From: an uncultured Roseovarius sp.
Lineage (GTDB): Bacteria > Pseudomonadota > Alphaproteobacteria > Rhodobacterales > Rhodobacteraceae
Assembly: GCA_947497295.1 (NCBI GenBank)
Contig: CANMFU010000002.1
Span: 248,001 to 312,000, forward strand
Length of the DNA stretch: 64,000 nucleotides
Direction of reading: 5' to 3'
Both the position numbers and the translations under genes were made by a program. A model generated the notes under the pieces. That model was given only the letters and a program-made list of their open reading frames with translations, had not been told where the DNA came from and did not search any database. Shown here piece by piece: positions 6,620 through 40,699 of this stretch; positions within the stretch are counted from its first letter, which is position 1; each line of letters begins with the position of its first letter.

Positions 6620-8213
6620 TGGATATTTGTCTGTCGAACACCGAATGAGCCGCGCCGCGATGCAACGCCGCAAGGATCGCCGCCTCTGGCAGAACCGCGC
6701 GGATGCCATCCAGCACGCGATCAGCCGTGCCCGCATCCAGCCCTTCTGTCGGCTCGTCCAGCAGCAGAAGGCGCGGCGATTTAAGGATGGCCCGCGCCAG
6801 CGCCAGACGCCGCGCCTGCCCACCCGATAGGCCCGCGCCCCCCTCGGTCAGCCTTGCGTCCAGCCCGCCGCGCTCGCGGATCGCATCGTCCAGCGCGACA
6901 GCCGTTAGCGCGCGCCACATTGCCTCGTCGCTCGCATCGGACGCAAGGGACAGGTTCTCGCGGATGGTTCCGGCAATCAGCGCACTGCGTTGCGGCACCA
7001 TTGCGACGAATTCGCGCAGCGCCGCCTCGGGCCAGTCACCGGGGCGCCGCCCGAGGATTGTGATTGCGCCCGCCTCCGCCAGCCCGGCAATCTGCATCAG
7101 CAGGCTTGTCTTGCCGCAGCCACTTGGGCCAGTCAGGGCTATGGTGTCACCGGCATCAAGCTCAAAGCGCAACTTCGGCTTGCGGATCGCAAGGAGCGGC
7201 GCTGTCATCAAATCCGGCGCCGGTGTGACGGATATGTTGGGCTGCGTCTTCGCGTCCGCTCCGATCCGCCGGGCGGCACCGACCATCCTGCCATAGTCAG
7301 AAAAACCACGCCTCAATGGCAGCAGCGTTTCGGCCAGCGCAAGGGCGACAAAGACGCCGATGGCTCCGATTGCCGGGCCGATCAACCCGCGCGCGATCAT
7401 CCATCCGCCAGCAATCAGCGCCAGCCCGGTCACCACCGCAACCAGCACCGACAGCGCGGCGCCCGCGCCCCGGTCCGCCAGATCGAGTGCCCGCGCGGCC
7501 TTGCGCGTGTCCGCGTTCAGCGCCAACAGCGCCGCCTCGCGCAAGCCCAGCGCCCCATCAAGGATCAGCGACTGGCGGTTGCGGATCATATCGATCACAC
7601 CGCGCCGCAGCGTCTGATCCTGCGCCTCGACCGCATCCGAGGGCTGGATACTGCGCCGCGCCAGACGCCAGAGAATAAGCGCGGCAAAAGGCGCGTAACC
7701 GGCCAGAACGGCCCACGCGATCGGCCAGCCGGCCAGCCATCCAAGCGCAAGGAAAACCAGCGCATGGGTTACAATCGCCGCCAGTCCTGGCAGCACAAGC
7801 CGCAGGATGACACCGTCCAGCGCATCGACGTCCGACACGATCCGCGTCAGCACCGCCTCGCTGCGCAGGCTGGCCAGACCACGGTCGCCCAGCCGCGCCT
7901 GCCGCCTGAGCAGCGTCACGCGCAGCGCCGCCAGCGCGCGCAGGGTCGCGTCATGGGTCAAAATCCGCTCGCCGTATCGCGCGGCCGTGCGGCCCAGCGC
8001 CAAAAACCGCACCCCGGCGGACGGGCGGAACACGTCAAAGGCGATCCCGATCCCGGCGATCCCGGCAATCCCCGTGGCGGTGATGAACCAGCCGGACAGG
8101 CCCAGCAGTGCCGCCCCCATCAGCAGCACGATGACCGATAGCGCCGCCCCCCGCGCCATCGCCCAGGGGGACGCGGTCACAAGCAGGCGGATGATTGGCA
8201 AAAGCGCCCTCAT
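6609..8213 (-). CDS. cydC: Thiol reductant ABC exporter subunit CydC
   Basis: This 534-residue half-transporter has an N-terminal six-helix membrane domain (about 1-310) and a C-terminal ATPase. Walker A is GPSGCGKTS, the signature is LSGGQARRLALARA, and Walker B plus D-loop is LLLDEPTEGLD. It pairs with CydD to export glutathione and cysteine (or heme-linked reductant), needed to assemble cytochrome bd. It overlaps the cydD stop by four bases, showing translational coupling, and is followed by cydABX, the usual alphaproteobacterial order. Length fits the family. Confidence 0.93.
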   Translation of the reverse strand: MRALLPIIRLLVTASPWAMARGAALSVIVLLMGAALLGLSGWFITATGIAGIAGIGIAFDVFRPSAGVRFLALGRTAARYGERILTHDATLRALAALRVTLLRRQARLGDRGLASLRSEAVLTRIVSDVDALDGVILRLVLPGLAAIVTHALVFLALGWLAGWPIAWAVLAGYAPFAALILWRLARRSIQPSDAVEAQDQTLRRGVIDMIRNRQSLILDGALGLREAALLALNADTRKAARALDLADRGAGAALSVLVAVVTGLALIAGGWMIARGLIGPAIGAIGVFVALALAETLLPLRRGFSDYGRMVGAARRIGADAKTQPNISVTPAPDLMTAPLLAIRKPKLRFELDAGDTIALTGPSGCGKTSLLMQIAGLAEAGAITILGRRPGDWPEAALREFVAMVPQRSALIAGTIRENLSLASDASDEAMWRALTAVALDDAIRERGGLDARLTEGGAGLSGGQARRLALARAILKSPRLLLLDEPTEGLDAGTADRVLDGIRAVLPEAAILAALHRGAAHSVFDRQISIDL

Positions 8214-26114: not shown

Positions 26115-27131
26115 TTACTGCAGCAATTGAGTCCAGACCCGCGTCACCAGATCCTGCGCCTTGGGGCTACAGGTGCGCGACATCTCGACCGGTACCGTGG
26201 GATAGAGCGCCGGGGCGTCCTCTTCGGTGTACTTCTTCTGGGAATCGATGACGGTCATCGGGGAAGAATGCGCATAGTGGTTCATCTCGATGGTAGCGTT
26301 TTCGGGGGTCGAGATGAACTCGATGAACTTGATCGCATTCTCGCGGTTCGGCGCGCCCTTCGGAATCACCATGCTGTCGATCCAGCCCACCAGACCCTCC
26401 TTGGGCATTGCGTATTCCAGTTGGGCGCCTTCGGCAATCGCGCGCACGACCTCGCCATCCCACCAGTAATGCGCGGCGACCTCGCCCGAGCTCAGCCGGC
26501 CTTCGATGTTGTCCGAGGAATAGGCGGCGACATGTTCCTTTTGCGCCATCAGCAGGTCCAGCACGCGCTTCATCTCATCGGGGTCTTCGGAGCAGAATGG
26601 CACGCCGAGATAAAGCTGCGCGGCACCGACGACTTCATCCGGATAGGACAGCAGCGCAATACTGCCCGAAAGGTCGCTTTCGGGTTCAAAGAAATACTTC
26701 ATGCTATCGGTGGGGCCATCATACTGGGCGGTGTTCACGGCAAAGCCCGCCGTGCCATAGGCCATCGGGATGGAATATTCCTGGTTCTCGTCCCACCACT
26801 GGTTGCGGTACTGCTCCTGGATATTTTCATAAGCATCAAGCGTGTTGGCGCCGTAGTTTTCGAGCAGTCCTTCGTCGATCATGATCCGCAGAAAGTGCTG
26901 CGACGGCACCGCGATGTCATATCCCGATGAGCCTGCCTGAAGCTTGGTCAGCAAGTCTTCGTTGGATGTGTAGCCGTCCACGTTGACCTGAACGTCATAC
27001 TCCTGCGAAAATTTTTCAATCAGTTCCGGCGCGATGGATTCCGACCAGACGTAAAGGTTCAGCGTGCCTTCGGCCATCGCCGAGGTGCCCATGCACAGGG
27101 CGATGGCCGTTGCTGTTGGCAATTTTGTCAT
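26115..27131 (-). CDS. Periplasmic binding protein, polyamine (PotD/PotF) type
   Basis: This 338-residue protein has a signal peptide (cleaved near residue 20, SAMA). It aligns with PotD/PotF along LYVWSESIAPELIEKF, YTSNEDLLTKLQAGSSGYDI, YSIPMAYGTAGFAVN, YWWDGEVV and VGWIDSMVIPKGAPN. The aspartate in WIDS corresponds to the polyamine-contacting Asp of PotD (WMDS). Such proteins bind putrescine, spermidine or related amines. The conserved acidic contact supports a cationic ligand. It is encoded with its own permeases and ATPase. Confidence 0.88.
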   Translation of the reverse strand: MTKLPTATAIALCMGTSAMAEGTLNLYVWSESIAPELIEKFSQEYDVQVNVDGYTSNEDLLTKLQAGSSGYDIAVPSQHFLRIMIDEGLLENYGANTLDAYENIQEQYRNQWWDENQEYSIPMAYGTAGFAVNTAQYDGPTDSMKYFFEPESDLSGSIALLSYPDEVVGAAQLYLGVPFCSEDPDEMKRVLDLLMAQKEHVAAYSSDNIEGRLSSGEVAAHYWWDGEVVRAIAEGAQLEYAMPKEGLVGWIDSMVIPKGAPNRENAIKFIEFISTPENATIEMNHYAHSSPMTVIDSQKKYTEEDAPALYPTVPVEMSRTCSPKAQDLVTRVWTQLLQ

Positions 27132-27167: not shown

Positions 27168-27971
27168 TCATTCGCCGTCTTTCTGACCGCGCGCCGCGAC
27201 GGTCAGCGCGGCTGTCGCCAATATCAACGAACCGATGATGAGCATCGTGGCAATGGCGTTAAGCTCGGGCGAAGTGCCCGCCCGGATCAGCGAGAAGATG
27301 TAGACCGGCAGCGTCGTCGTCCCGCCCGAACTGAGCATGTTAGAGGTGATGAAATCATCCATCGAGATCAGGAAGGCGAGCATCGCGCCAGAGAACAGCC
27401 CCGGAAAGATCAGCGGCAGCGTCACCCGGCGAAATACGGTCCAGCGCGAGGCATACAGATCGGTCGCCGCCTCCTCATAGTCCAGCGACATGCCCTGAAG
27501 CCGCGCCCGGATCGGCAGGAAGGCGAAGGGCGTGCAAAAGGCCGAATGCGCGATCACCAGCTTGATCATGCCGTTCTGCAGGCCGATCAGCGAAAACAGG
27601 ATCAGCGTTGCCACGGCCAGCACGATTTCGGGCAAAAGCAGCGGCAGGTTCACCACCGTCTCCGACAGTTTGCGAAAGCGCACGTTCCTGCCCCGGATGA
27701 TCGACAGTGCCGCCAGAAGCGCGATCGTCGTGGCCACCACGGTCGCGATGGCGGCCACGGTAAGGGATGTCTTGAGCGCGGCCATAAGCGCGTCGTTCTT
27801 CAGTGCCGAGCCATACCATTTGAACGAAAACTCCGTCCACACGCTGGTGATGCGGTTGGCATTGAACGAATAGAGGATGACGATCAAAAGGGGTGCGTAG
27901 AGATAGACAAAGAACGCGATGCTGATCAGCCCCAGCCCGGGATAGCGTTTCACGTCATGCTGCTTGCTCAT
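27168..27971 (-). CDS. ABC transporter permease, PotC type
   Basis: This 267-residue protein has six predicted helices and the EAA loop DYEEAATDLYASRWTVFRRV, followed by LPLIFPGLFSGAMLAF, both typical of PotC/PotI-like permeases. It overlaps the stop of the preceding permease (ATGA) and precedes the binding-protein gene by 36 bases. It forms the translocation channel with the PotB-type permease. Confidence 0.9.
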   Translation of the reverse strand: MSKQHDVKRYPGLGLISIAFFVYLYAPLLIVILYSFNANRITSVWTEFSFKWYGSALKNDALMAALKTSLTVAAIATVVATTIALLAALSIIRGRNVRFRKLSETVVNLPLLLPEIVLAVATLILFSLIGLQNGMIKLVIAHSAFCTPFAFLPIRARLQGMSLDYEEAATDLYASRWTVFRRVTLPLIFPGLFSGAMLAFLISMDDFITSNMLSSGGTTTLPVYIFSLIRAGTSPELNAIATMLIIGSLILATAALTVAARGQKDGE

Positions 27972-28891
27972 GCGTCGGCCTCCTTGCGGGCGCTGCGCAG
28001 CGCTAAGGCGATCAGGACCAGCATCACGACCACCAGCAAGGTCATGGCGATGGCCGCCCCAAAGGGCCAGTTGCGGCCGCCGCCGAATTGCAGCTGGATC
28101 AGCGAGCCCATCATCATCTGCTTGCCCCCGCCCATCAGGATCGGTTCGAGAACCGCGCCCAGCGCCGGCACGAAGACAAGGATCGCCCCCGACACGATGC
28201 CCGGCGCCGTCAGCGGCAGGATCACCCGGCGCAGGGTCGTCCAGCGGTTGCCATAAAGATCATGCGCCGCCTCGATCAGGGTGCCGTCCAGCTTTTCGAT
28301 GGAGGCGAACACCGGCAGGACCATCAGCGGAATATAGGTATAGACCATCGCGGCCAGCGTCGCGCCGTCGTTGTACATCAGTGTCATGCCCGAAGGCGCG
28401 CCAAAGAATTCGAGGAAACGCGGCAATGGGCCGTCTTTTCCCAGAATGATCATCCATGCATAGATCCGCAGGATCATCGACATCCAGAACGGCAGCGTCA
28501 CCAGAAACACCAGCGCCGATTTGCGGCTCCCCGGCTGCCGGGCGATCCAGTAGGCGACGGGCACCGCAAGGATGAGGCAGAGGATGGTCGTTACGGTTGC
28601 CAGCAGGATGGTCCGCAGGATGATGATCACATATTGCGGCGTGAACTCCATTTCGCCGGTCCAGCCTTCGTTGAACAGGATCTGGCGGTAACCCGACAGA
28701 TCGAACCCCCAGTCGAACCCGCCATAGGCGCCCCTGATGGCGACAGAGACCGCCGCGATGATGAAAATCGGCAGGATCAGGGCAAATCCCATCAGCAGCC
28801 AGGATGGCGCCAACCCCAGATACGGCAGGTTGACGCGGCGGCGCAGCCGAACCCGCGCCGGGCCCGTATGATGTGCCGACGTCTCGCTCAT
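27968..28891 (-). CDS. ABC transporter permease, PotB type
   Basis: This 307-residue protein has an N-terminal basic region (RLRRRVNLPYLG), six helices, a large first periplasmic loop and the EAA loop LIEAAHDLYGNRWTTLRRV followed by LPLTAPGIVSGAILVF. This is the PotB/PotH pattern. It overlaps both neighbours by four bases, so the importer genes are translationally coupled. Confidence 0.9.
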   Translation of the reverse strand: MSETSAHHTGPARVRLRRRVNLPYLGLAPSWLLMGFALILPIFIIAAVSVAIRGAYGGFDWGFDLSGYRQILFNEGWTGEMEFTPQYVIIILRTILLATVTTILCLILAVPVAYWIARQPGSRKSALVFLVTLPFWMSMILRIYAWMIILGKDGPLPRFLEFFGAPSGMTLMYNDGATLAAMVYTYIPLMVLPVFASIEKLDGTLIEAAHDLYGNRWTTLRRVILPLTAPGIVSGAILVFVPALGAVLEPILMGGGKQMMMGSLIQLQFGGGRNWPFGAAIAMTLLVVVMLVLIALALRSARKEADA

Positions 28892-29961
28892 GCTGCCAGC
28901 ACCCGCGCGGAGCCTTCGACGAAACCGACATGCACGGTGCTGCCGACCGCGATTGTATCGCCTTCGCGCGAGGCATTGCGCCGCGAGGCGCGAATTTCGA
29001 CGCCGCCCGCCGATAGCTGGTAATGGGTATAGCCGCCCAGATAATGCTTCTTCACCACATCGGCCTGAAAATCGACCCCCTGAACCTGATCCCCGAGGTT
29101 GAGCTTCTCCGGCCGGATCGACAATGTCGCCTTTCCCGCCGGCACATGCGTCGCGGATGGCACGCTGATGATCTGACCAAATGGCGTGCGGACGGTCGCG
29201 GTCGTCTGCGTCGAGTCAAGCACATCGACCTCGAAGAAATTCGTCTCGCCAACAAAATCCGCGACAAACCGGTTCAACGGCTCCTCATAAATCTCCGATG
29301 GCGCGCCGATTTGCTGAACCTCGCCGCCGCCAAGAACCGCTATGCGGTCGGACATGTCCAGGGCTTCTTCCTGATCGTGGGTCACAAAAACAAAGGTGAT
29401 GCCGGTGTCGCGCTGAAGCGTGCGCAACTCGTCGCGCATGGCCTGCCGCAGTTTCAGGTCCAGCGCCGAAAGCGGCTCGTCCAGCAGCAGGACTTCGGGC
29501 TCGGGGGCGAGCGCCCGGGCAAGCGCGATGCGTTGCCGCTGCCCGCCCGACAGCTGCGCGGGCTTGCGGTTGGCAAATGCGCTCATATGCACCCGCTCCA
29601 GCATTTCGCCCACGCGGGCGGTGATCCGCGCTTTGTCCCAGCCGAGGTTTTCAAGGCCGAAAGCCACGTTCTGGGCAAGCGTCATATGCGGAAACAGCGC
29701 ATAGCTCTGAAAAACCGTATTCACGCGCCGCTTGTGCGGCGGGATGTCGACGATGTCGCGGCCGTGCAGCAGCAGTCTTCCGGTGTCGGGGGTCTCGAAA
29801 CCCGCCATCATCCGCAGCAAGGTGGTCTTGCCGCAGCCCGACGGTCCGAGCATCGTGAAAAACTCGTTCTCGCGAATATCGAAATTGACCGAGCTCAGCG
29901 CCTGATAGGAGCCAAAACTTTTTGAGACGTCGATCACTTCTACAGCGGTTTGCTGACTCAT
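28888..29961 (-). CDS. ABC transporter ATPase, PotA type
   Basis: This ATPase of 357 residues has Walker A GPSGCGKTT, Q-loop NTVFQSYALFPHM, signature LSGGQRQRIALARAL, Walker B LLLDEPLSALD, H-loop VTHDQEEALDMSD and a C-terminal TOBE domain. It energises the polyamine-type importer. I chose the ATG at 29961 (MSQQTAVEVIDVSKSFG) because the 28 upstream codons are not family-like. It is the first gene of a leftward operon and lies about 125 bases downstream of a LysR-type dyad. Confidence 0.92.
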   Translation of the reverse strand: MSQQTAVEVIDVSKSFGSYQALSSVNFDIRENEFFTMLGPSGCGKTTLLRMMAGFETPDTGRLLLHGRDIVDIPPHKRRVNTVFQSYALFPHMTLAQNVAFGLENLGWDKARITARVGEMLERVHMSAFANRKPAQLSGGQRQRIALARALAPEPEVLLLDEPLSALDLKLRQAMRDELRTLQRDTGITFVFVTHDQEEALDMSDRIAVLGGGEVQQIGAPSEIYEEPLNRFVADFVGETNFFEVDVLDSTQTTATVRTPFGQIISVPSATHVPAGKATLSIRPEKLNLGDQVQGVDFQADVVKKHYLGGYTHYQLSAGGVEIRASRRNASREGDTIAVGSTVHVGFVEGSARVLAA

Positions 29962-30085
29962 TCGCTTTTTCCCATATGTGGGGGTCGCGCCCCGGTCTTG
30001 CGGTGCCCTCTGATGCGAGCGGTGGTGATGCAGAATAGACGTCAAACCGATGGCACAGGTAAATGAGCGCTTGCAGAAGTGCTGG

Positions 30086-30100
30086 TTAGGGTGTGCCTAA
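30086..30100. promoter_or_regulatory. Candidate LysR-type operator, site 1
   Basis: TTAGGGTGTGCCTAA is a perfect 5-bp inverted repeat (TTAGG/CCTAA) around 5 bases and contains the LysR motif T-N11-A. It lies about 125 bases upstream of the importer ATPase start and 246 bases upstream of the hydroxylase. A 14/15-identical site occurs upstream of the other leftward operon at 40188. Confidence 0.6.
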
Positions 30101-30129
30101 GCGATCCGAGCGCGTGCGCGGTCAAGGCG

Positions 30130-30143
30130 ATCAATCTATTGAT
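30130..30143. promoter_or_regulatory. Second palindrome in the divergent promoter
   Basis: ATCAATCTATTGAT is a 6-bp perfect inverted repeat with a 2-base centre, lying 30 bases from the TTAGG dyad. It could be a second binding site or a promoter-linked AT-rich element. No copy was noticed at the other operon. Confidence 0.3.
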
Positions 30144-30345
30144 AGAAAAGAAAGAAATACCAATTCCGCTTGATCCGGAGAGACTGTACCTACAGCAATT
30201 CGGTATGCGCCGAAGTTGCGCCGGACCGATCAGGAGCGCAGGATTAGGCAAATCCATAACGCAGGTGACAAAACGCCTCCTTTGGATCAGCCCGGTAGGC
30301 GTGGCAGAGTCGTTTCCGACAAGGTCCCACAAGCAGGAGGTTAGC

Positions 30346-31905
30346 ATGGTCCGGACAGCCAAAGACTATCGCGAGGCAATGCGGGCGGAGCGGGAGATCT
30401 ACATCGACGGAGCGCGGGTTGCGGATATTGAAACGCACCCCGCCTTTGCCCCCCTGATCGATCTACGCGCTCATATCTACGACATGCAGCTTGACCCCGC
30501 CCATCGCGATGTTCTGACCAAAACCACCCAGGGCCGGACCGATACGGTTAGCGCCGCACTGCCCTTCTCGCAGTCTGATTGGTGGGCCAAGCGCCGGGCG
30601 ACCGATCGCATCCTTGATGACATCGGCGGCATCGCTGCCCGCACGGGGGATGAAACGGTCGGTGAGTTCTGGTCGCTGCATGATTGTCGCGATGCGCTTG
30701 TGGATATGGACCCCCAGTTCGGCGGCAATATCGACCGGCACGTTCGGGCGGCCATCGAGGACGATCTTTTCAACGTGTCCGCCAATACGGACCCCAAGGG
30801 CGACCGGTCGCGGCCCCCGCAGAACCAGGACCCGGACATCCTGCTGCGCGTCGTGCGCGAAACCGATGCGGGCGTAATCGTGCGCGGCGCCAAGTTCGAG
30901 ACCGGCGCCGCCTATGCGGATCGCGCTTACACCAAACCCAATATCGCCGCCTGGGGCGACAGGCTTGCCCCTGAATATGCCGTTGGCTTTGTCTGCGATC
31001 TGAATGCGACAGGGTTAAAATTCATCTGCCGGTCGGGCTTTGCAAAGCCAGGCACCGAACGCGACTATCCTCTGTCCAACAAGTTCGATGAGATTGAGGC
31101 GCTGGTGGTTTTTGACGATGTACTGGTCCCCTGGGAAGACGTGCTGTTCTACCGCCAACCGCGCGCCGCGACCCTGATCCGCGCCACGCTGCACAGATAT
31201 TCCGCCTTCGCCTTCCTCCACCGCATACTGAAGTTCGGTGACATGCTGATCGGGGCGGCGCTGATGAATGTGCGTCAGACAGGGCTCGAGGGGCAGCAGG
31301 CCGTGCGCGACAAATTGGCCAAGCTGGCGGTCTGGCGCGAAGGGCTTCATGCACACCTCACCGCGGCGATCGCACTGGGGGAAAAATCACCGGCTGGTCT
31401 GATGATGCCCAACCAATCTCTGCTCTATGCGGGGCGCGTTCACGCGACGTCCTGCCTGCATGACATGGTGAATATCACGCGCGAGCTTTGCGGTGGGCAA
31501 TTGTCCCTGACGCCCGGCGCAGCGGCGTTCGAGGCCCCCGAGACCGAGCCTTGGCTGACCAAATACTACGCACAGGGCGACGGCTGGTCTGCGGAGGAGC
31601 GCCGCAAGCTCATGGCGTTTGCGCGCGATCTTGTCAGTTCCGATTACGCAGGCCACAGACTGGGACTTCAGTTGTTTGCACAATCGCCGGCTTATGCACA
31701 ACTTGCGTCGGTCTATCGCCATTTCGACTGGGACGGCCCGCTGGCGCTGGTGCGCGATGCCGCCGGTCTGGAGGCGCAAGCCTCTGCTGCCGCGGCGGTC
31801 GGCGGCGGCGGGAATCCCTCGCAGGGCGCTTGCGGCTGGCTCGATCCGAAACTACCACGGGTAAAGAGGTCGCTGGTCAATCTCGATGATTACTTCAAAA
31901 CCTGA
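30346..31905 (+). CDS. HpaB-like FADH2-dependent hydroxylase (4-hydroxyphenylacetate 3-hydroxylase family)
   Basis: This 519-residue protein matches the large oxygenase component of two-component flavin monooxygenases. The N-terminal MVRTAKDYREAMRAEREIYI with DGARV is the family start, and ALVVFDDVLVPWEDVLFYRQ, HRYSAFAFLHRILKFGD and the C-terminal TRELCGGQLSLTP regions fit. These enzymes hydroxylate phenols or related rings using FADH2 from a separate reductase. No flavin reductase gene is nearby, so a reductase elsewhere must serve. The start is fixed by AGGAGG at 30334-30340. It is co-directional with and 32 bases upstream of a lysR gene. Confidence 0.85.
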   Translation: MVRTAKDYREAMRAEREIYIDGARVADIETHPAFAPLIDLRAHIYDMQLDPAHRDVLTKTTQGRTDTVSAALPFSQSDWWAKRRATDRILDDIGGIAARTGDETVGEFWSLHDCRDALVDMDPQFGGNIDRHVRAAIEDDLFNVSANTDPKGDRSRPPQNQDPDILLRVVRETDAGVIVRGAKFETGAAYADRAYTKPNIAAWGDRLAPEYAVGFVCDLNATGLKFICRSGFAKPGTERDYPLSNKFDEIEALVVFDDVLVPWEDVLFYRQPRAATLIRATLHRYSAFAFLHRILKFGDMLIGAALMNVRQTGLEGQQAVRDKLAKLAVWREGLHAHLTAAIALGEKSPAGLMMPNQSLLYAGRVHATSCLHDMVNITRELCGGQLSLTPGAAAFEAPETEPWLTKYYAQGDGWSAEERRKLMAFARDLVSSDYAGHRLGLQLFAQSPAYAQLASVYRHFDWDGPLALVRDAAGLEAQASAAAAVGGGGNPSQGACGWLDPKLPRVKRSLVNLDDYFKT

Positions 31906-31937
31906 CCTGCGGCACCCTTGCCGGATCGAAAACCGAA

Positions 31938-32879
31938 ATGCCGCTACGCTACACACTCAGACAGTTGGAGTATTTCGTCGCGGTCGGCGAAACCGGCAGC
32001 ATTGCGGGGGCATCGCAGCAGGTCAACGTCTCGTCGCCGTCGGTATCGGCGGGTGTCTCCCAGCTTGAAGAGGAACTGGGCGTCAAGCTGTTCGTGCGTC
32101 ACCATGCGCAAGGGCTGACCCCGACCTCCGCAGGGCGCAAGCTGCTTGACCATGCGCGATACGTGCTGCAACAGGCGAGCGTTCTGCGCGATCTGGCCGG
32201 GGACCTGTCAGGCAGCGTACGCGGCCCGCTGGCCATCGGATGTCTGAGCACCTTTGCGCAAATCGTTTTGCCCGGATTGCGGCACAGCTTTGTCCAGCAG
32301 CACTCCGACGTGCGCATCACGCAGATCGAGGCCGATCAATCGGGTCTTTTCAGCCTTCAGCGGCAGGCCAAGATAGACCTTGCCCTGACCTACGATCTGG
32401 ACCTGCCCCGGGATCTGACGTTCCTTCCGATCCTCGAATTGCCGCCCCTGGTCGCGCTGCATGAAGCCCACCCGCTTGCCCATCTGCCTGCGATTTCGAT
32501 CACCGATCTGGCACCCCATCCGATGGTATTGCTGGATCTGCCCCATAGCGCGGATTACTTTCTGTCATTTTTCGCCGAACACGGCCTGCGCGCAAACATT
32601 GCCGAGCGGACCCGCGACATGGCGGTGATGCGCGGGCTGGTCGCCAACGGCTTTGGGTATTCCATCGTGAACGTGCGCCCGCAGAACGATCTGGCCCCGG
32701 ACGGCAAGCCCATCCGGTTCGTTCCGCTGACCGGCAAGCAGCGGCCGATGAAACTGGGCATCTTGACCAGCGCCGGATCCGATCACACGCAGTTGCACCA
32801 AGCCTTCGTCAGCCACGCGCAAAGCTGGATTGAAAGCCATGCATCCAAGCTTTTGGGCGTGCCGTCACCGCGCGACTGA
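31938..32879 (+). CDS. LysR-family transcriptional regulator
   Basis: This 313-residue protein has an N-terminal winged helix (LRQLEYFVAVGETGSIAGAS, SSPSVSAGVSQLEEELGVKL, RHHAQGLTPTSAGRKLLDHA) and a C-terminal effector-binding domain. It is the only intact regulator in the island. It sits next to the hydroxylase and close to two matching T-N11-A dyads, so it is the natural candidate for controlling all three transcription units, likely with the pathway substrate or an intermediate as co-inducer. Its 3' end overlaps the convergent deacylase gene by 15 bases. Confidence 0.92.
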   Translation: MPLRYTLRQLEYFVAVGETGSIAGASQQVNVSSPSVSAGVSQLEEELGVKLFVRHHAQGLTPTSAGRKLLDHARYVLQQASVLRDLAGDLSGSVRGPLAIGCLSTFAQIVLPGLRHSFVQQHSDVRITQIEADQSGLFSLQRQAKIDLALTYDLDLPRDLTFLPILELPPLVALHEAHPLAHLPAISITDLAPHPMVLLDLPHSADYFLSFFAEHGLRANIAERTRDMAVMRGLVANGFGYSIVNVRPQNDLAPDGKPIRFVPLTGKQRPMKLGILTSAGSDHTQLHQAFVSHAQSWIESHASKLLGVPSPRD

Positions 32880-34040
32880 CCGGCCTGATATCTCGGCCTT
32901 CAGGCGATCCATCATTGCATCGCATTGTCCGAGTTGCGCAAGCGTGACGAATTCATCCACCTTGTGCCCCTGCGCCTCCATGCTGCCGGGGCCGCAGACC
33001 ACAGTCGGAGTACCAAGCCCCGCAATAAATCCCGCTTCGGTGCCGAAGGCGACCTTGGTCAGATCGCCCGAGCCGCAAAGCCGCGCCACGCGCTGAACTG
33101 CGGGATGATCGGGCGCGATTTCCAGTCCGGGATAGGTATTGACGACCTCGATGTCGATCCCGACATCCGCGTGCCGGGCGCGAAACGGGGCGCTGATGCG
33201 ATCCACTACACGCGCCAGCCGGTCCACAAAGTCCTGCAATGCGTCCTGCGGAAGATGGCGCAGCTCAAACTCGACAACGGCCTTTTCTGGCACGATGTTG
33301 AGCGCCGTACCGCCCTGAGTGGTCCCGGCGTGAACCGTGGTATAGGGCACGTCATAGGTAGCATCCTGCACGTCGGACGTCTCATAGTCGCGCTGGATTG
33401 TCCGCAGCGCAGTTATGAAATCCGCCGCCAGATGCAGCGCGTTAACGTATTTTGGCGCCAGCGCGGAATGGCCGGCAACCCCGCGGCAGGTGGCGCGCAG
33501 CGCAGCTTTGCCCTTGTGCGCGGTTGCGGGCCTCATCATCGTGGGCTCGCCTACGATGCAAAGGTCCGGCTTCCAGCCCAGGCCCTCAAACTCTGGCATC
33601 ATCTTGCGAATGCCCAGGCAACCGATTTCTTCGTCATAGGAGATGATCATCATCAAGGGCGCCTGTAGCGCGTCCGCATCCACCCGCTGCGCCAGCGACA
33701 ACATCGCCGCCAGATACCCTTTCATGTCGGTCGTGCCACGGCCGAACAGCTTGTCCTCTACCTGCGTCATCTCGAACGGCGGCCGGGTCCATGCCTGCCC
33801 GTCGACCGGCACCACATCGCTATGCGCGGAAAGCAGCACGCCCCCTGCCCCGCCGGGACCGATGCGCGCGACGAGTCCGGATTTGGCAAGCACCGGATCG
33901 GGGATTCGCTGCGTCGCAAAACCGGCGCGTTGCAGCAGTCCTTCGGCATAGTCGATCAGCGCCAGATTGCTTTCGGCGCTGACCGTGGGAAACCCGATCA
34001 ACCGGCCGAGGATATCAAGCGTCGCGCGATGGGGCGTCAT
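32865..34040 (-). CDS. ArgE/DapE-type metallopeptidase (N-acyl deacylase)
   Basis: This 391-residue M20-family protein contains the metal and catalytic motifs LLSAHSDVVPVDG, GRGTTDMKGYLAAM, SYDEEIGCLG, TVHAGTTQGGTALNIVP (dimerisation-domain His) and the final His in MEAQGHKVDEF. It resembles acetylornithine deacetylase, but the setting is catabolic and no arginine genes are near. It probably removes an N-acyl group from a pathway intermediate. It overlaps the upstream flavoprotein gene by four bases (ATGA) and is the last gene of the leftward oxidative operon. Confidence 0.88.
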   Translation of the reverse strand: MTPHRATLDILGRLIGFPTVSAESNLALIDYAEGLLQRAGFATQRIPDPVLAKSGLVARIGPGGAGGVLLSAHSDVVPVDGQAWTRPPFEMTQVEDKLFGRGTTDMKGYLAAMLSLAQRVDADALQAPLMMIISYDEEIGCLGIRKMMPEFEGLGWKPDLCIVGEPTMMRPATAHKGKAALRATCRGVAGHSALAPKYVNALHLAADFITALRTIQRDYETSDVQDATYDVPYTTVHAGTTQGGTALNIVPEKAVVEFELRHLPQDALQDFVDRLARVVDRISAPFRARHADVGIDIEVVNTYPGLEIAPDHPAVQRVARLCGSGDLTKVAFGTEAGFIAGLGTPTVVCGPGSMEAQGHKVDEFVTLAQLGQCDAMMDRLKAEISGRSVAR

Positions 34041-36106
34041 TGCGCGGCCAATTCCGTGATCTCGCGCCGGAACGGCAGGTCGTCGCCGATGTCTGCGCCG
34101 TCCAATTCACGTGCATAGCGGTGACCGGCATAGGTCGCCCAGGCAATCGGCCCGGCGGCCTCGGCGTCGCCAAAGATCCTGACCGACCGGATCCCCGCAT
34201 CGGCCCAATCCGCCTGTCGCGCGGTCAGGTCATGGAATAGCCCGTCATTGCCGGTGCGCGAAGTGACCATGACGACCGCATCGCATTCGTAATTGCGGGT
34301 CTTGCCGGTGTAGACGCAGTTGCTGACCACATGATCGGCCCCGATTTCCGCAACGCCGCGGTTCAATACGATATCAACGCCCATTTCGTCCAGCTTGGCG
34401 TGAATCGTCGCTTGCTCCAACGTGTTGTTCGTCCAGTCCGAGACGAAGGCCGACGGCGTGATCAACGTCACCTTTGCCCCCTTTTGGATCAGCAACTCGG
34501 CCAGCACACCGCCCATATAATAATGGTCGTCGTCAAAAATCACCACATTGCCGCCCGGCACCGTGCCGTCCATCAGATCGTCAGGCGTAAAAATCCGCGC
34601 ACCTTCGGCAATCGGCATCGGCACCACGTGTTGCCGGGCAACGCCGTCGCGCCGCCAGGCGGCGCCGGTCGCGATGGCGACGTTCTGGAACCCGAATTCG
34701 AGGATGCTCTCGGCGTCCAACTCGCTCTCGCGATAAATTTCGACATTGGGCCGCTGCGATAACTGGTAGTCGCGGTAATCCACCACGCGGCCCCAGGCCG
34801 ACAGGCCGGGCAGCGCGCGTTCGCGGGTGACGCGCCCGCCAATCACGTCCTTTGCCTCGGCCACGGCCACGTCATAGCCGCGGCGGCACAGCGCCCAGGC
34901 GGCCTCAAGCCCCGCCGGGCCAGAGCCGATAACCAGAACGTTCTCGCTGTCGCCCTTGGCGTTCATGTTTTCCGGATGCCAGCCCTTGCGCCATTCCTCC
35001 ATGAAGGTTGGGTTCTGGGTACAGCGGCTGATGGACATGGTCATGTCGCCGGTGATGCAGATATTGCAGCCAATGCATTCGCGGATATCGTCGATGCGGC
35101 CTTCCTCGATCTTTTTCGGCAGGAACGGGTCAGCGATCGAGGGGCGCGCGCAGCCGATCATATCGAGCGTGCCGGACTTGATCATCTTGACCATGACATC
35201 GGGCGAGGTGAACCGTCCGACCCCAACGATGGGCTTGTCCGTGAAGTCGTGGATCGCCTTGACCAAATCGAACTGTGCCGCCTCCTCCTTGAACCGCGAC
35301 GGCCCCGAGCAATCCTCCCAGGCCCCATGGGCCAGATCCCAGATGTCGGGCAGATCGCGGTGCATTTCGATGAAGTCGCGCACCTCGGCATTGGAAAATC
35401 CGAGATCGCCGATGGATTCGTCCAGCGACACGCGCATCGCAATTGCCATCGTGTCACCCACCGCGTCGCGAATATCCGCGACCACCTCGCGGGCGAAACG
35501 CGAACGATTCTCCAGGCTGCCGCCATACGCGTCGGTTCGGTGGTTGGTGGCGCGGCTCAGGAAGTGCTGGAAAATCCCGAAACCATGCGCGCCATAGAGA
35601 TTGATCAGATCGAACCCCGCGTCCCTTGATCGCTTTGCCGCGTTCACGAACCAGCGGCGCAGGTCGCCGATCTCGGCTGTCGACATGGCGCGGGCCTGCA
35701 CCGGGTCATTGGTAAAGGTGCGGATCGGCAGCGCGGAGGGTGCAAGCGGCACCTCCTTGGAGTAAAGGTTCGGCCCGTTGATCCCGGAATAAGCCAGCTG
35801 GATGCCCGCCAGCGCGCCGTGTTCTTTCATCTTCTCCGACATGCGCCGCAACTGCGGGATGTCCTTGTCCTCCCACAGGCGCAATTCGATGAAAGGCGTG
35901 ATTTCCGACGTGTGGTGCATCTCGCACTGCTCGGTAAAGATCACGGCCCAGCCGCCCTGGGACTTGATGCCGCGCATTTCCGCCGCAGCCGATGGATCGC
36001 GATAGCCGCCGCCGTTGCAATGCGGGACCTGATAGAACCGGTTTTTTGCGGTGTGCGGACCGATCTTGATCGGGTCGAACAGAATGTCATAGCGGGCGTC
36101 GCGCAT
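34037..36106 (-). CDS. Trimethylamine-dehydrogenase-like iron-sulfur flavoprotein
   Basis: This 689-residue protein follows TMADH/DMADH layout: an FMN TIM barrel (1-340), a [4Fe-4S] segment with Cys at about 344, 347, 350 and 362 (CIGCNICITGDM and SRC), and FAD/ADP-binding domains beginning LVIGSGPAGLEAA. Cys30 in RFYQVPHCNGGG is conserved, which in TMADH carries the covalent 6-S-cysteinyl FMN. In the substrate bowl, the TMADH Tyr60 position reads Gln (FTEQCE), as I recall for dimethylamine dehydrogenase, and no Trp matches Trp355. It should oxidatively N-demethylate a secondary or tertiary amine and pass electrons to ETF or a similar acceptor. No etf genes are nearby, and the substrate is not established. 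Confidence 0.87.
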   Translation of the reverse strand: MRDARYDILFDPIKIGPHTAKNRFYQVPHCNGGGYRDPSAAAEMRGIKSQGGWAVIFTEQCEMHHTSEITPFIELRLWEDKDIPQLRRMSEKMKEHGALAGIQLAYSGINGPNLYSKEVPLAPSALPIRTFTNDPVQARAMSTAEIGDLRRWFVNAAKRSRDAGFDLINLYGAHGFGIFQHFLSRATNHRTDAYGGSLENRSRFAREVVADIRDAVGDTMAIAMRVSLDESIGDLGFSNAEVRDFIEMHRDLPDIWDLAHGAWEDCSGPSRFKEEAAQFDLVKAIHDFTDKPIVGVGRFTSPDVMVKMIKSGTLDMIGCARPSIADPFLPKKIEEGRIDDIRECIGCNICITGDMTMSISRCTQNPTFMEEWRKGWHPENMNAKGDSENVLVIGSGPAGLEAAWALCRRGYDVAVAEAKDVIGGRVTRERALPGLSAWGRVVDYRDYQLSQRPNVEIYRESELDAESILEFGFQNVAIATGAAWRRDGVARQHVVPMPIAEGARIFTPDDLMDGTVPGGNVVIFDDDHYYMGGVLAELLIQKGAKVTLITPSAFVSDWTNNTLEQATIHAKLDEMGVDIVLNRGVAEIGADHVVSNCVYTGKTRNYECDAVVMVTSRTGNDGLFHDLTARQADWADAGIRSVRIFGDAEAAGPIAWATYAGHRYARELDGADIGDDLPFRREITELAAQ

Positions 36107-36175
36107 TTTTATCTCCTTTACGGGCGTGGTACGGGCGTCGCGCGCACTCCCGGGGCTTCTTTCTATTGGGGCGGA

Positions 36176-37672
36176 TCAGGCCTGATACTTGATCCAGGTG
36201 GTTTTCAAGGCGGTGTATTTGTCCAGCGAATGCAGCGACAGATCGCGGCCAAAGCCCGATTGCTTCATCCCGCCAAAGGGCGTTTGCGCCGAAAGGGCAT
36301 CCACGGTGTTCACCGATACGGTGCCGACATTCAAACGATCCGCCACGCGGCAGGCACGGCTGAGCCCCCCGGTCCAGACCGACGCGGCCAGCCCATAGAT
36401 GGAATCGTTGGCCATGCGAACCGCATCGTCTTCGCTGTCGAAGGCTATGACAGACAGGACCGGACCAAAGATCTCGTCGCGCGCAAGCGGGTTATCCTGC
36501 GTCACCTCGTCAAAGATGGTCGGCTGCACGAAACAGCCCTTGCCATCCACCGTGACCCGGTCGCCACCGGTCACCAAATTGGCGGTCTTCTTGCCGTCCT
36601 CGACAAAGCCCATGATTCCCTGCGTCTGCTTTTCATCAACGATCGCGCCCATTTTCGATACCGGATCGAGCGGATCACCGGGCTGCATCGCCTCGGCTCG
36701 CTCTTTCAGCTTTGCAATAAGGTCGTCCTTGATCGCGCGCTCCACATAGAGCCGCGAATTGGCCGAGCAGACCTCGCCTTGATTGAAGAAGATGCCGAAG
36801 GCGGCCATATCGGCCGCCGCATCAAGGTTTTCGCAATCGGCAAAGACGATATTGGGGCTTTTGCCGCCGGTTTCCGGCCAGACCTGTTTCAGGTTCGACT
36901 GGCCGGAATACTGCATGAACATCTTGCCAATGGCGGTCGAGCCGGTGAAGGCCAGACAGTCGACATCCATGTGCAGACCCAGCGCCTTGCCTGCAGTGTG
37001 GCCGTACCCCGGCACCACGTTGAACACGCCATCGGGCACACCCGCCTCGGCCGCCAATTCGGCCAGCCGCAGCGCCGAGAGCGGCGATTGTTCGGCGGGC
37101 TTCAGCACGACGGAATTGCCCGCCGCCAGCGCCGCCGCCGCCTTCCACGTCGCCATGTCCAGCGGGAAGTTCCACGGCGTCACCGCGCCGACCACGCCCA
37201 ATGGAACGCGGCGCACCAGCGCCAGATCGCCGGGGCCGGTCGGGGCGACCTCGTCATAGATCTTGTCGATGGCTTCCGCGTACCATTGGAAAAAATGCGC
37301 CGATCCGGGCGCATCCACGGTTGAGGCGTCCGTGATCGTCTTGCCCATATCAAGACTGTCGAGCAGGGCCATTTCCTCAAGATTGGCGCGAATGAGATCG
37401 GCCAGCTTCAGCAGCACCGCCTTGCGATCCCCCGGCGCCATGCGCGACCAATGCCCGGCCTCGAACGCCCGGCGGCCGGCGGTGACGGCGCGGTCCACGT
37501 CTTCGGCGTCACACTCGGCCACGGCGGTCAAAACAGCGCCGGTGGCCGGATTGATGCTGTCGAACGTTCTGCCCGACGCCGCATCAACGAACTTGCCGTC
37601 AATGAAGGCCTTGTTGCGAAAGCCAAGAGTAGCGGCGCGTGTTCTCCAGTCCTGATGCGAAAGATCAGCCAT
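36176..37672 (-). CDS. NAD-dependent aldehyde dehydrogenase (PuuC-like)
   Basis: This 498-residue ALDH has TPWNFPLDMATWKAAAAL, the Rossmann FTGSTAIGKMF, the catalytic Glu in PETGGKSPN and the catalytic Cys in NQGEVCSANSR. The overall match is closest to the betaine-aldehyde/gamma-glutamyl-aminobutyraldehyde group that acts on amino-aldehydes. It would oxidise the aldehyde released during amine breakdown. I chose the ATG at 37672 (MADLSHQDW) because the 86 upstream codons lie in the next gene. A 69-base gap separates it from the flavoprotein gene. Confidence 0.9.
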   Translation of the reverse strand: MADLSHQDWRTRAATLGFRNKAFIDGKFVDAASGRTFDSINPATGAVLTAVAECDAEDVDRAVTAGRRAFEAGHWSRMAPGDRKAVLLKLADLIRANLEEMALLDSLDMGKTITDASTVDAPGSAHFFQWYAEAIDKIYDEVAPTGPGDLALVRRVPLGVVGAVTPWNFPLDMATWKAAAALAAGNSVVLKPAEQSPLSALRLAELAAEAGVPDGVFNVVPGYGHTAGKALGLHMDVDCLAFTGSTAIGKMFMQYSGQSNLKQVWPETGGKSPNIVFADCENLDAAADMAAFGIFFNQGEVCSANSRLYVERAIKDDLIAKLKERAEAMQPGDPLDPVSKMGAIVDEKQTQGIMGFVEDGKKTANLVTGGDRVTVDGKGCFVQPTIFDEVTQDNPLARDEIFGPVLSVIAFDSEDDAVRMANDSIYGLAASVWTGGLSRACRVADRLNVGTVSVNTVDALSAQTPFGGMKQSGFGRDLSLHSLDKYTALKTTWIKYQA

Positions 37673-37685
37673 GCGTTGTTCCTTT

Positions 37686-38360
37686 TCAATCGTCGCCGGG
37701 CACGCCGTAGGACGGCGCCTCGCGGGGGTCGAGCGCCCGCTGGATGTACGCATCCAGCTGCGGCTTGTAGATCTCCCAGGCGGTTGCGACGGCCTCGATG
37801 GGGCAGTCCTCGGTCCAGTCGCAGCGCAGATCGGCCACTGGCCAGGCGACCTTGCCTGCGATCTGCATCCCGGCGGAATGGACCGGCCCCGCTTCGCCGC
37901 CAGCAGCCAGACCCGCGCGCATGGCGGCAATCAGGCGGTCGCCGAGATGGCCTGTGGCCGAAAGGTAACCGTCGACGATCGCCTGCGGCACACCATCGTT
38001 ATCCAGGAGATTGCCACCCGAGGCCACATTTTCGGCCTGCGCCTGCGTCCAGATACCCAGCGAGTTCGGCCCGGAATGGATTGCCGTGCCGCCGTCAGCG
38101 TCGACAGCCAAAACCTGACGGTATTCCACGAACCTCGCTTCCGACGCCATCTTTGCAATCGCCACTGCGGCGCTCATGCCGCGCTGCATCAGATCCAGCG
38201 TCAGCGGCCCCAGCGCCGGGTCCGTGACGTTCTGTGAGGCCACTGCGCCGACGCCAGCCCTTGTGTAGGAACACCGCGCCGCCACCGCGGGGGACGACGA
38301 AGAAATGGCCACACCGAACATGCCGGTATCGGGGCAGCGGGCTACCAGTGAAAAGGTCAT
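37686..38360 (-). CDS. DUF1028-family protein
   Basis: This 224-residue protein begins MTFSLVARCPDTGMFGVAIS and continues SSSPAVAARCSY, the start of DUF1028 proteins, which are related to Ntn-hydrolases. It also has GPNSLGIWTQAQAENVASGGN and LLDNDGV. The biochemical role is unknown, but members cluster with amidases, RidA proteins and amino-compound catabolism. The ATG at 38360 overlaps the RidA gene stop by four bases. The co-occurrence supports an amide or imine processing step. Confidence 0.87.
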   Translation of the reverse strand: MTFSLVARCPDTGMFGVAISSSSPAVAARCSYTRAGVGAVASQNVTDPALGPLTLDLMQRGMSAAVAIAKMASEARFVEYRQVLAVDADGGTAIHSGPNSLGIWTQAQAENVASGGNLLDNDGVPQAIVDGYLSATGHLGDRLIAAMRAGLAAGGEAGPVHSAGMQIAGKVAWPVADLRCDWTEDCPIEAVATAWEIYKPQLDAYIQRALDPREAPSYGVPGDD

Positions 38361-38785
38361 GTCTCGTATCCTTCCGGAATGACCGCCGTGCCGTCGATTT
38401 CGACCAGCCATTCGGGCCGCGCCAGCGCCTGCACCACCAGCCCTGTTGATACCGGATGCACGCCTTTGATGTATTCGCCCATGGTGCGATACACCGCCTC
38501 GCGGTGGCGCACATCGGTGATGTAGACGACGACCTTGACCAGATGCGCCATCTCGCCGCCGGCCTCTTCGATCAACTGTTTGATGTTCTGCATGACCTTA
38601 TGGGTTTGCTGTGCGGGATCGTGACTGTCGATATTCTTGGCATCGTCCAGATTTTGCGGACACTGCCCACGCAGCCAGACCGTCTTGCCGCCTTGGGTAA
38701 CCACGGCCTGACACAGGTCGTTGTCCAGTTTCTGTTCGGGGTATGTCTGGCCAGTATTGAACTTGCGAATGCGGGTATGAGCCAT
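38357..38785 (-). CDS. RidA-family imine/enamine deaminase-like protein
   Basis: This 142-residue protein is of the Rid (YjgF/YER057c) family: VTQGGKTVWLRGQCPQNLDD, HDPAQQTHKVMQNIKQLIEE, VVVYITDVRHREAV and RPEWLVEIDGTAVIP. The Arg and Glu of the last motif correspond to the active-site pair of RidA. Such proteins hydrolyse reactive enamines or imines formed in amine oxidation. Placed between a flavin monooxygenase and DUF1028, it likely clears an imine intermediate. Confidence 0.9.
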   Translation of the reverse strand: MAHTRIRKFNTGQTYPEQKLDNDLCQAVVTQGGKTVWLRGQCPQNLDDAKNIDSHDPAQQTHKVMQNIKQLIEEAGGEMAHLVKVVVYITDVRHREAVYRTMGEYIKGVHPVSTGLVVQALARPEWLVEIDGTAVIPEGYET

Positions 38786-38800
38786 TGGATTTTCCTTGGA

Positions 38801-40078
38801 TTATTCGGCGGCGGACTGCACAATTGCAGCCTCGCCTTCGTAACGCTGATAGGCACGCTGGATTTCGATCTGATCCGCGATGTGCTTTGCATCGTGCCAC
38901 ACACCCCATAGGAAGGATGATCCCCGCCGCGATTGCCAAGGCAGACCAAGGAAATAGACATCCGGCTCGACCGACGATCCGCGCTGATGGATCGGCGCGC
39001 CTTTTTCATCAAACGCATTGACCTTAAGCCAGCCGAAATCCTGCCGAAATCCTGTGGCCCAGATGATTGAGGTCACGCCCTCGGCAGCCAGATCGATCGA
39101 GCGTACCGGGCTGGTCAGGCAATCCGGATCGGGATAGGCCTCGCGCGCCTCCGGCTCTTGCGGCAGGTCGATGCCGGTGCGCGCGACATAGGCATCGGCC
39201 ATGTCCAGCACTTCAAGGTAATTGGCATCCCCCGCTGCGATATTCCCCTGAAGATCGCCCGCAAAGCTCAGGACGCCATCCTCGTAGCCGCTTGTAAGCC
39301 CTGTTAGGGTGACGCCCTCGCCCGCCAACCGGCGAAAATCCATCGTCTGCCCGCCCCGCGCGCCGCTGACGGAAATGGTCACATGCTCGGTCCCCGGTGC
39401 CGGCGCGGCCATGTCCCACAGGCCCAGAACGCCCAGCCACCACACATTGTCGCGGCCCCGGTACCGTCGCGGCGGACGGTCATGCGGCCCCACCGAGAGG
39501 AAGACCTTGCGCCCGGCCCGGTTCAACTCGTCCGCAATCTGCGCGCCGGAGGACCCGGCGCCGACAACCATCACGGCACCTTCCGGCAGTTGTTCAGGGT
39601 TCTTGTAATGGAAGGAATGCAGCTGTTTGATATCCGCACTTTCAGGGACGATCGGGGGAATGACCGGATGCTGAAACGCACCGGTCGCGGCAACAACGCG
39701 GCGCGCCTTGATCTCGCCCTCGCTTGTCTTGACCAGAAATCCGCCGCTACCCGGAAGGCGCTCAACTGCGAGCACTTCGACTCCCTCGCGGATTGGCGCG
39801 TTGATCATCGCGGCATAATCGACAAGATACTGCGCCATCCGGTCCTTGGGAACGAACTCGTCAGGATGGCAGCTTTCGAATTGCATCCCCGGAAAGCGAT
39901 CATGCCACGCAGGACCATTGGCGACCAGGTTGTCCCAACGACCGGTGCGCCATGCTTCGGCTGTGCGGTTTTTCTCTACGACAATATGAGGGACCTTCGC
40001 GCGGCCGAGATGTTCGCTCATCGCGATGCCGGCCTGTCCGCCCCCGACAATCAATGTATCTGTTTTTTCCACCAGCAC
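38801..40078 (-). CDS. FAD/NADP-dependent flavin monooxygenase
   Basis: This protein of about 425 residues has an N-terminal FAD site (DTLIVGGGQAGIAMSEHLG), a second Rossmann site for NADP (MVVGAGSSGAQIADELN) and the FMO-type link VTSIIWATGFRQDFGWL. It resembles YUCCA/CzcO-like single-component monooxygenases that oxidise amines or ring carbons. I prefer the GTG at 40078, which has GAGGAG 8 bases upstream. It is the first gene of the leftward operon ending at the deacylase, and lies 110 bases downstream of a LysR-type dyad. Confidence 0.87.
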   Translation of the reverse strand: MLVEKTDTLIVGGGQAGIAMSEHLGRAKVPHIVVEKNRTAEAWRTGRWDNLVANGPAWHDRFPGMQFESCHPDEFVPKDRMAQYLVDYAAMINAPIREGVEVLAVERLPGSGGFLVKTSEGEIKARRVVAATGAFQHPVIPPIVPESADIKQLHSFHYKNPEQLPEGAVMVVGAGSSGAQIADELNRAGRKVFLSVGPHDRPPRRYRGRDNVWWLGVLGLWDMAAPAPGTEHVTISVSGARGGQTMDFRRLAGEGVTLTGLTSGYEDGVLSFAGDLQGNIAAGDANYLEVLDMADAYVARTGIDLPQEPEAREAYPDPDCLTSPVRSIDLAAEGVTSIIWATGFRQDFGWLKVNAFDEKGAPIHQRGSSVEPDVYFLGLPWQSRRGSSFLWGVWHDAKHIADQIEIQRAYQRYEGEAAIVQSAAE

Positions 40079-40503
40079 GTCAGCGCTCCTCTCATTTGAT
40101 TGCCCACAACCTGCCCTCAAGCGGAGCGATACACCGTTCTTATGCGGTACCCGAAAGATGGAAAATTACGATTTCTGTCATCATTGCTTAGGGTGAGCCT
40201 AAACCGAACCTACTTGTGCGATCTTTCACCCCCCGCCTTTCGTCACCTCTGCTACGCCTACCAAGCAAACGAACGACAGGACGGAGATTTATTTCACACT
40301 GCACAGAGCATGGACGTCAGTGTACAAAAAGCCGGGCTGCTGTAGCACATAGAGAAAATCCGAGTGCCACACAGCCGCACGGCGGCCAGGAGCCAATGTT
40401 AAACAGCTTCTTTAAGTGATTATGTTTAGTCCCCGCAGTGGACAGAACGGGTAAGGTCGCCCGGTGCTGGCCAGAGCTGTCTGACGTCAGCACCTGTGGG
40501 ACA
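40079..40503. other. Promoter region of the oxidative operon and right edge of the island
   Basis: About 425 bases with no supportable gene. The proximal part carries the dyad at 40188-40202. The distal part runs into an IS3-family relic at 40504. No terminator or RNA gene was recognised. Confidence 0.5.
40188..40202. promoter_or_regulatory. Candidate LysR-type operator, site 2
   Basis: TTAGGGTGAGCCTAA is the same dyad as at 30086-30100 with one base changed in the spacer, and keeps T-N11-A spacing. It lies 110 bases upstream of the flavin monooxygenase start, almost the same distance as site 1 from the importer ATPase. Two such sites in front of two leftward operons of one island argue for shared control. 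Confidence 0.62.
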
Positions 40504-40675
40504 GATTTGAGGATTTGAATAAGGGAGGATTTCTGGTTCATCTGATCGATTAGAAAATCGAGATGACGAAGAAGCCCCAGACATCGAAAGATGCTGCCGA
40601 CAAGGTGATCAAGAACATCCAGCGCAAGACCCGTCAAACCTATTCTGCCGAGGAAAAGATCTGCATTGCCTTGGC
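40504..40675 (+). pseudogene. IS3-family orfA, 5' fragment (copy B)
   Basis: From the ATG at 40563 this reads MTKKPQTSKDAADKVIKN then TYSAEEKIC, the same orfA start as copy A but in the opposite orientation. The leader GATTTGAGGATTTGAATAAG is shared as well. By eye the two copies differ at scattered positions over about 165 bases, so this is not a recent duplication. The element is cut at about 40675 and joined to an unrelated reading frame. Confidence 0.78.
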
Positions 40676-40699
40676 GCGGCAAAGGCGCATCTGGAGGAT

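Follow-up and report, generated by a model that had tools for sequence, protein, structure and literature searches.

A conserved TTAGG-N5-CCTAA dyad as the probable LysR operator of a two-operon histamine regulon in Roseovarius

The stretch of DNA analysed here, 64,000 nucleotides of an uncultured Roseovarius sp. (contig CANMFU010000002.1, positions 248,001 to 312,000; hereafter the window), carries an island of catabolic genes in which two leftward operons are each preceded by a copy of the inverted repeat TTAGG-N5-CCTAA. This dyad is very probably bound by a LysR-type regulator whose gene lies at 31938-32879 and which would activate the two operons as a histamine regulon. A LysR regulon of the two leftward operons is strongly supported at the level of sequence comparison, because orthologous promoters retain the dyad, loci with it tend to have the LysR gene as well, and the promoters have the geometry of LysR activation. 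In the proposed mechanism, the LysR protein would recognise TTAGG-N5-CCTAA, bound at about -65 of the two leftward promoters, and a pathway intermediate, probably imidazole-4-acetate, would serve as co-activator. Operon 1, with PotABCD-like uptake and an amidohydrolase, and operon 2, with hinF-L-H-D, histamine dehydrogenase, and hinG, would both be switched on.

The two operators match in form and placement. Operator 1, TTAGGGTGTGCCTAA, lies at 30086-30100 in the promoter of the uptake operon, and operator 2, TTAGGGTGAGCCTAA, at 40188-40202 in the promoter of the hinF-type catabolic operon; the dyads themselves are assigned no strand, and both promoters read leftward. Each is a perfect 5-bp inverted repeat around a 5-base spacer, with T2-N11-A14 spacing. 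These features had been claimed in a first-pass annotation of the window and are present there, as is the claimed separation of 110-125 bases from the first gene of each operon, which measures 124 bp to the ATG of the ATP-binding cassette (ABC) ATPase gene (29961) and 109 bp to the GTG of the flavin monooxygenase (FMO) gene (40078), both genes reading leftward. A scan of the whole 3.92 Mb genome, which the same annotation had proposed, finds exact TTAGG-N5-CCTAA just twice, both times upstream of the island operons. The pattern read backward as a control also occurs twice, so the rarity of exact sites alone proves little. With up to one mismatch there are 11 sites in the genome, versus 79 for the backward control, and 7 of 100 shuffles of the window gave two or more such sites (mean 0.37). 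Among 18 genomes of the same genus, counted regardless of gene cluster, none has two exact sites and six have one. Taken by itself, the pair in the window is only moderately improbable. What is decisive is not how many exact sites there are but that they stand in front of two operons, separated by 10 kb, and are conserved in other genomes.

Conservation was assessed in two sets of loci. One is selected by LysR: of 198 genomes in the family, 51, including the own genome, contain a match to the regulator with an E-value no higher than 1e-60. Setting the own genome aside leaves 53 matches, and up to 20 kb was taken around the 40 best. The other, chosen independently of LysR, is selected by the DUF1028 protein of the island and holds the best 80 of at least 434 confirmed relatives; the two sets share some genomes. 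For each gene, the 350 bp before its start were scanned for the dyad at up to one mismatch, leaving out genes under identity thresholds (FMO 58, OYE 60, ATP 49, and others) or with less than 150 nt upstream. Permuted half-sites (29) and six other spacers served as controls.

Orthologous promoters, whose comparison the first-pass annotation had called for, retain the dyad upstream of the genes for the FMO, the ATPase, and histamine dehydrogenase. In the 80 DUF1028-selected loci it is found before 40 of 69 FMO genes (18 exact), 24 of 32 ATPase genes (8 exact), and 27 of 47 histamine dehydrogenase genes (10 exact). The permuted half-sites average 0.7, 0.2, and 0.2 at these genes, with largest counts of 5, 2, and 3, and the other spacers give 0 or 1 dyads. 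Crude ungapped removal of similar promoters leaves 39/67, 23/31, and 24/44. Within the same limits, no dyad is found upstream of the genes for DUF1028 (0/79), aldehyde dehydrogenase (0/29), or the solute-binding protein (0/29), and it precedes 9 of 77 Rid and 16 of 57 M20 genes, some of these cases lying between divergent genes. Permuted half-sites are sometimes frequent upstream of DUF1028 (up to 50/79) and the solute-binding protein (16/29) because the upstream stretch is coding there and its codons are conserved. The site lies at a median of 109 bp from the start codon at the FMO (range 73-287), 92 bp at the ATPase (83-316), and 81 bp at histamine dehydrogenase (76-153).

In the LysR-selected stretches the dyad stands before 18/35 FMO, 14/19 ATPase, and 10/21 histamine dehydrogenase genes. 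When all 5-base half-sites with spacers of 0-12 are ranked unguided in this set at up to one mismatch, the dyad heads the list of 4007 at the FMO and that of 2488 at the ATPase, and is third among 2586 at histamine dehydrogenase. Ranked by exact counts, it is 1st at the ATPase, 2nd at the FMO behind the overlapping ATTAG-N7, and outside the top six at histamine dehydrogenase. On this comparative evidence the dyads are a real conserved operator, predicted to be of LysR type.

The anatomy of the promoters is visible when those of the relatives are aligned on an exact TTAG-N7-CTAA core situated 60-150 bp upstream of the start codon. The arms hold 1.6-1.7 bits of information, a value inflated by the core-based choice of promoters, which leaves the downstream positions unaffected, and the 25 bases preceding the arms hold 0.02-0.14 bits. 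Downstream of the dyad, T+8, A+14, T+23, T+24, and a TA near +46 are conserved. If the TA is read as a -10 box, transcription would start near +57 and the centre of the dyad would fall near -65. LysR-type activators have their recognition site, the T-N11-A box, at about -65. The T-N11-A spacing, whose near-invariance in relatives partly follows from selecting sites at up to one mismatch, the predicted centre near -65, and the conserved downstream bases together fit a LysR-type activator.

Both window promoters carry these elements on the minus strand. The downstream part of promoter 1 (30032-30085) has T+8, A+14, and TTT+23, with one mismatch to the composite TTAG-N7-CTAA-N5-G-N-T-N5-A-N8-TT, and a possible -10 box, TATTCT, may be picked out by eye at 30032-30037. 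That of promoter 2 (40137-40187) has G+6, T+8, A+14, and TTT+23, matches the composite without mismatch, and has a possible -10 box, again picked by eye, in TAAGAA at 40137-40142. At up to one mismatch, the two leftward promoters are the only places in the own genome where the composite occurs, and none of the nine further one-mismatch dyads of the genome has it. All three promoter classes of the relatives were pooled into a weight matrix covering the 50 bases that follow the dyad. On it, the left side of site 1 has a score reached by 0.01% of window positions and the left side of site 2 one reached by 0.001%. The right sides score at a level reached by 28% (site 1) and 23% (site 2) of positions. 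From these scores, site 1 faces the ABC operon and not the hydroxylase-lysR unit to its right. On a matrix of histamine dehydrogenase promoters alone, promoter 1 scores very well (0.001% of window positions); it departs from the usual ATPase type.

The unit on the right of site 1 begins with an HpaB-family flavin hydroxylase gene identified by family search (30346-31905, plus strand), whose start is 245 bp from the site, and continues with the lysR gene. The first-pass annotation held that one LysR could explain three transcription units. Its claim holds for the two leftward operons, on the conserved dyad, LysR co-occurrence, and promoter geometry, but control of the hpaB-lysR unit from site 1 is not supported by the sequence. 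Regulation of this unit from site 1 finds no support in the matrix score or the composite pattern, nor in the occurrence of the dyad upstream of lysR, where it is found in just 1 of 59 genes in the DUF1028-selected set and 1 of 40 in the LysR-selected set. A consensus promoter scan of 29900-30400 returned nothing on either strand and is uninformative both ways.

A broader regulon, in which the one LysR governs all three units and regulates itself through site 1, is nevertheless the alternative that survives best, although we regard it as rather unlikely. Site 1 sits between divergent units, and a divergent unit is often under the control of LysR regulators. One relative (L124) has a one-mismatch dyad (6744-6758) about 107 bp upstream of a gene group that begins with hpaB, at a locus whose LysR is 49% identical. 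HinK of P. aeruginosa governs its own expression, according to the available part of PMC8231116. Set against these points are the lack of conserved promoter elements to the right of the site, the distance of 245 bp to hpaB versus 124 bp to the ATPase gene, and the near absence of the dyad before lysR in relatives. Separately, the slot held here by HpaB is variable. Genes that by eye, on their N-terminal sequence, resemble Rieske oxygenases replace it beside the hinF-type cluster in five relatives, namely L097:8399-9562, L100:1519-2586, L102:7200-9496, L103:8414-9565, and L092:8371-9516. A 173-aa open frame by the cluster at L120:8955-9476 resembles the HpaB N-terminus by eye and is possibly a gene remnant.

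The regulator proposed to bind the dyad (31938-32879, plus strand) has the HTH_1 and LysR_substrate domains (PF00126 and PF03466) above cut-off, which places it among LysR-type regulators. Its best relatives in the PDB are 6m5f, which we take to be HinK, and 3fzv, both entered as 'probable transcriptional regulator' (173 bits). Its gene and the dyad co-occur. Loci whose LysR is at least 52% identical have the dyad in 53 of 57 cases, and the others in 4 of 23 (Fisher 5e-11, with the identity line set after the table was inspected and descent not corrected for). The combined table uses a line of 51%, includes LysR genes found elsewhere in the genome for the 18 of 80 loci whose genomes were searched, and covers 78 loci, L124 and L132 being omitted for want of a usable promoter; a site is counted in it where the dyad lies in an FMO, ATPase, histamine dehydrogenase, or M20 promoter. 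Dyad and LysR are both present at 56 loci and both absent at 17, with LysR alone at 4 and the dyad alone at 1; the dyad thus accompanies this LysR at 56 of 60 loci and occurs at 1 of 18 without it. The single dyad-only locus has a LysR of its own at 47% identity. In a quick LysR tree, the branch holding the window protein (support 89, below the 95 mark) draws 55 of its 59 rows from dyad-bearing loci; just one of the six deeper rows that were scored (41-48% identity) comes from such a locus.

It is improbable that the dyad is bound by some other regulator, encoded elsewhere and travelling with the pathway. Further regulators, of the LysR family or unrelated to it, may be encoded in the genome, and binding by this LysR is itself a prediction. 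The T-N11-A spacing and the predicted -65 position nevertheless suit the LysR family, and the presence of the dyad follows that of this LysR across the combined table. Whole-genome searches point the same way: the three site-bearing loci searched have one LysR match each (78, 58, and 47%), and 11 of the 13 searched that scored as site-less have no LysR match at 1e-50. The last two of the 18 genomes searched, L124 and L132, have a LysR of 49-51% and no scorable promoter, the one-mismatch site of L124 being that before its hpaB-first group. In Alloyangia pacifica (L111) the dyad stands before the FMO gene and the LysR (58%) is about 100 kb away, on a contig of equal length, so the regulator need not neighbour its target. 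Clusters at L128, L131, L150, L121, and L122 have a distant LysR (41-48%) and no dyad, and may use another operator.

The first-pass annotation spoke of a catabolic island without naming its pathway. The predicted pathway is histamine catabolism, because the island combines a histamine dehydrogenase match with hinF-L-H-G genes. The OYE-like histamine dehydrogenase of operon 2 (34037-36106) matches the Rhizobium enzyme 6de6 at 1235 bits over 686 aa, followed in the PDB by Nocardioides histamine dehydrogenase (837), the FMN oxidoreductase 6l6j (646), and trimethylamine dehydrogenase (527). At 13 positions assigned to the active site or pocket in the Rhizobium enzyme (PMC10180351, in the accessible part), the aligned window protein has the identical residue throughout. 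Operon 2 lies wholly on the minus strand and begins with the hinF-type FMO (38801-40078), by context an imidazoleacetate monooxygenase. It continues with a Rid-family protein (38357-38785, below the family cut-off), a DUF1028 protein (37686-38360), an aldehyde dehydrogenase (36176-37672), the histamine dehydrogenase, and an M20 amidohydrolase (32865-34040), the DUF1028, aldehyde dehydrogenase, and M20 assignments coming from family searches. HinF is described as an FAD monooxygenase, HinL as an enamine deaminase, HinH and HinG as amidases, and HinD as an aldehyde dehydrogenase in the parts of PMC6467879 and PMC8231116 available. The FMO, Rid, DUF1028, aldehyde dehydrogenase, and M20 proteins fit HinF, HinL, HinH, HinD, and HinG, respectively, as assigned by context and these listed functions.

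Gene order agrees with this assignment in a phylum-wide search (398 genomes, 35 matched, 30 loci kept). The order FMO-Rid-DUF1028 is found in the window and in all 17 loci of other classes; M20 follows next in 9 of the 17, and in the remaining 8 the sequence runs out within about 340 bases. The window differs in having the aldehyde dehydrogenase and histamine dehydrogenase inserted between H and G. Operon 1, also on the minus strand, begins with a PotA-type ABC ATPase (28888-29961, family search), followed by PotB-type (27968-28891) and PotC-type (27168-27971) permeases, placed by position and translation and named by context. A solute-binding protein of the polyamine class (26115-27131, family search), a candidate amine or histamine binder, and an Amidohydrolase_3 family enzyme (24408-26066, family search) complete the operon. 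The ABC system would carry histamine. Two features lie outside these operons: a second DUF1028 gene of the own genome, outside the island (G000:C3:115281-115838), and a short frame at window 40560-40690 that by eye resembles a transposase N-terminus and may mark an edge of the island just to the right.

There is little likelihood that the cluster degrades another amine or an N-methyl heterocycle instead of histamine. Trimethylamine is the substrate of related dehydrogenases, a related oxidase acts on a nicotine intermediate (as stated in the accessible part of PMC5500553), and the HpaB or Rieske-like slot is unexplained. The best PDB match is nevertheless the Rhizobium histamine dehydrogenase, well above trimethylamine dehydrogenase, and the identity at all checked positions and the hinF-L-H-G order also speak for histamine. 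Homarine, a first idea suggested by an operon name, was dropped on the histamine dehydrogenase match. That the two dyads are a functionless chance pair, as the backward control and the shuffles might suggest, is rejected as exceedingly improbable on the comparative data, in which the dyad is kept in orthologous promoters at a preferred distance and controls are near zero.

Several observations weigh against the two-operon LysR regulon. A site at up to one mismatch is missing from 29 of 69 promoters at the FMO, 8 of 32 at the ATPase, and 20 of 47 at histamine dehydrogenase, and a LysR of at least 52% identity stands at four loci that are site-less by rule (L093, L099, L135, and L142), the last having an exact site that the 150-nt minimum excludes. 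Promoter 1 scores poorly when the matrix is restricted to ATPase promoters (a level attained by 6% of window positions), has A for G at +6, and has its possible -10 box about 3 bases further off. The composite was drawn up with the window's own promoters also in view, and its backward control has one match per strand. Co-occurrence is not proven independent of descent: a pair test on a DUF1028 tree yields 9 independent pairs, only 2 of them well supported, and a sign test on these cannot reach significance. The binding of the LysR protein to DNA, the activation of the operons, the positions of the transcription starts, the ligand, and histamine transport by the ABC system are predictions.

The two-operon regulon would extend an observation on two sites to an operator that can be tested, serving a histamine pathway widespread among marine and rhizobial bacteria. 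In dozens of relatives from the sea and from soil, this operator precedes the same set of genes. A histamine regulon would become recognisable from its DNA alone. The LysR protein becomes a candidate sensor of histamine or imidazole-acetate, and the DUF1028 and Rid proteins of these bacteria gain context-based roles.

The proposed system shares features with three that are known. Like the canonical LysR activator promoter, the window promoters have T-N11-A within a dyad, a predicted centre at about -65, and conserved bases toward -35; they differ in the half-site TTAGG, and we know of no described LysR box with this half-site. No description of a TTAGG-N5-CCTAA operator was found among the literature matches listed, which does not establish its absence from print. 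The predicted histamine dehydrogenase resembles that of Rhizobium sp. (6DE6) over its full length (1235 bits) and at 13 of 13 positions, with no difference in kind seen. The HinK regulon of Pseudomonas aeruginosa and P. putida likewise places histamine genes under a LysR-type regulator; in P. aeruginosa, HinK controls hinDAC and hinFLHG through a motif common to the hinD and hinF promoters (PMC8231116, in the part available). Entry into the pathway is by the aminotransferase HinC there and by histamine dehydrogenase in the window, HinA there contrasts with the adjoining ABC uptake system here, and the window genes all lie in one island.

The operator also differs in its distribution. Outside Alphaproteobacteria, none of 17 hinF promoters has the TTAGG dyad, and unguided dyad counts there gave no strong candidate. 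Among alphaproteobacterial loci outside the window, the dyad is present in 1 of the 3 that belong to the same family and in 6 of the 9 that belong to other families. From the contrast between other classes and other families, the operator seems to be that of an alphaproteobacterial branch. We see about even chances that TTAGG-N5-CCTAA, with its core TTAG-N7-CTAA, defines an undescribed alphaproteobacterial histamine-utilisation regulon, spanning roseobacters, Paracoccus, Mesorhizobium, and Phyllobacterium. Such a regulon would pair a HinK-like regulator with a non-Pseudomonas operator and join ABC uptake to dehydrogenase-type breakdown, its operators persisting through changes in gene order, in the number of operons, and in the accessory oxygenase (HpaB or Rieske-like).

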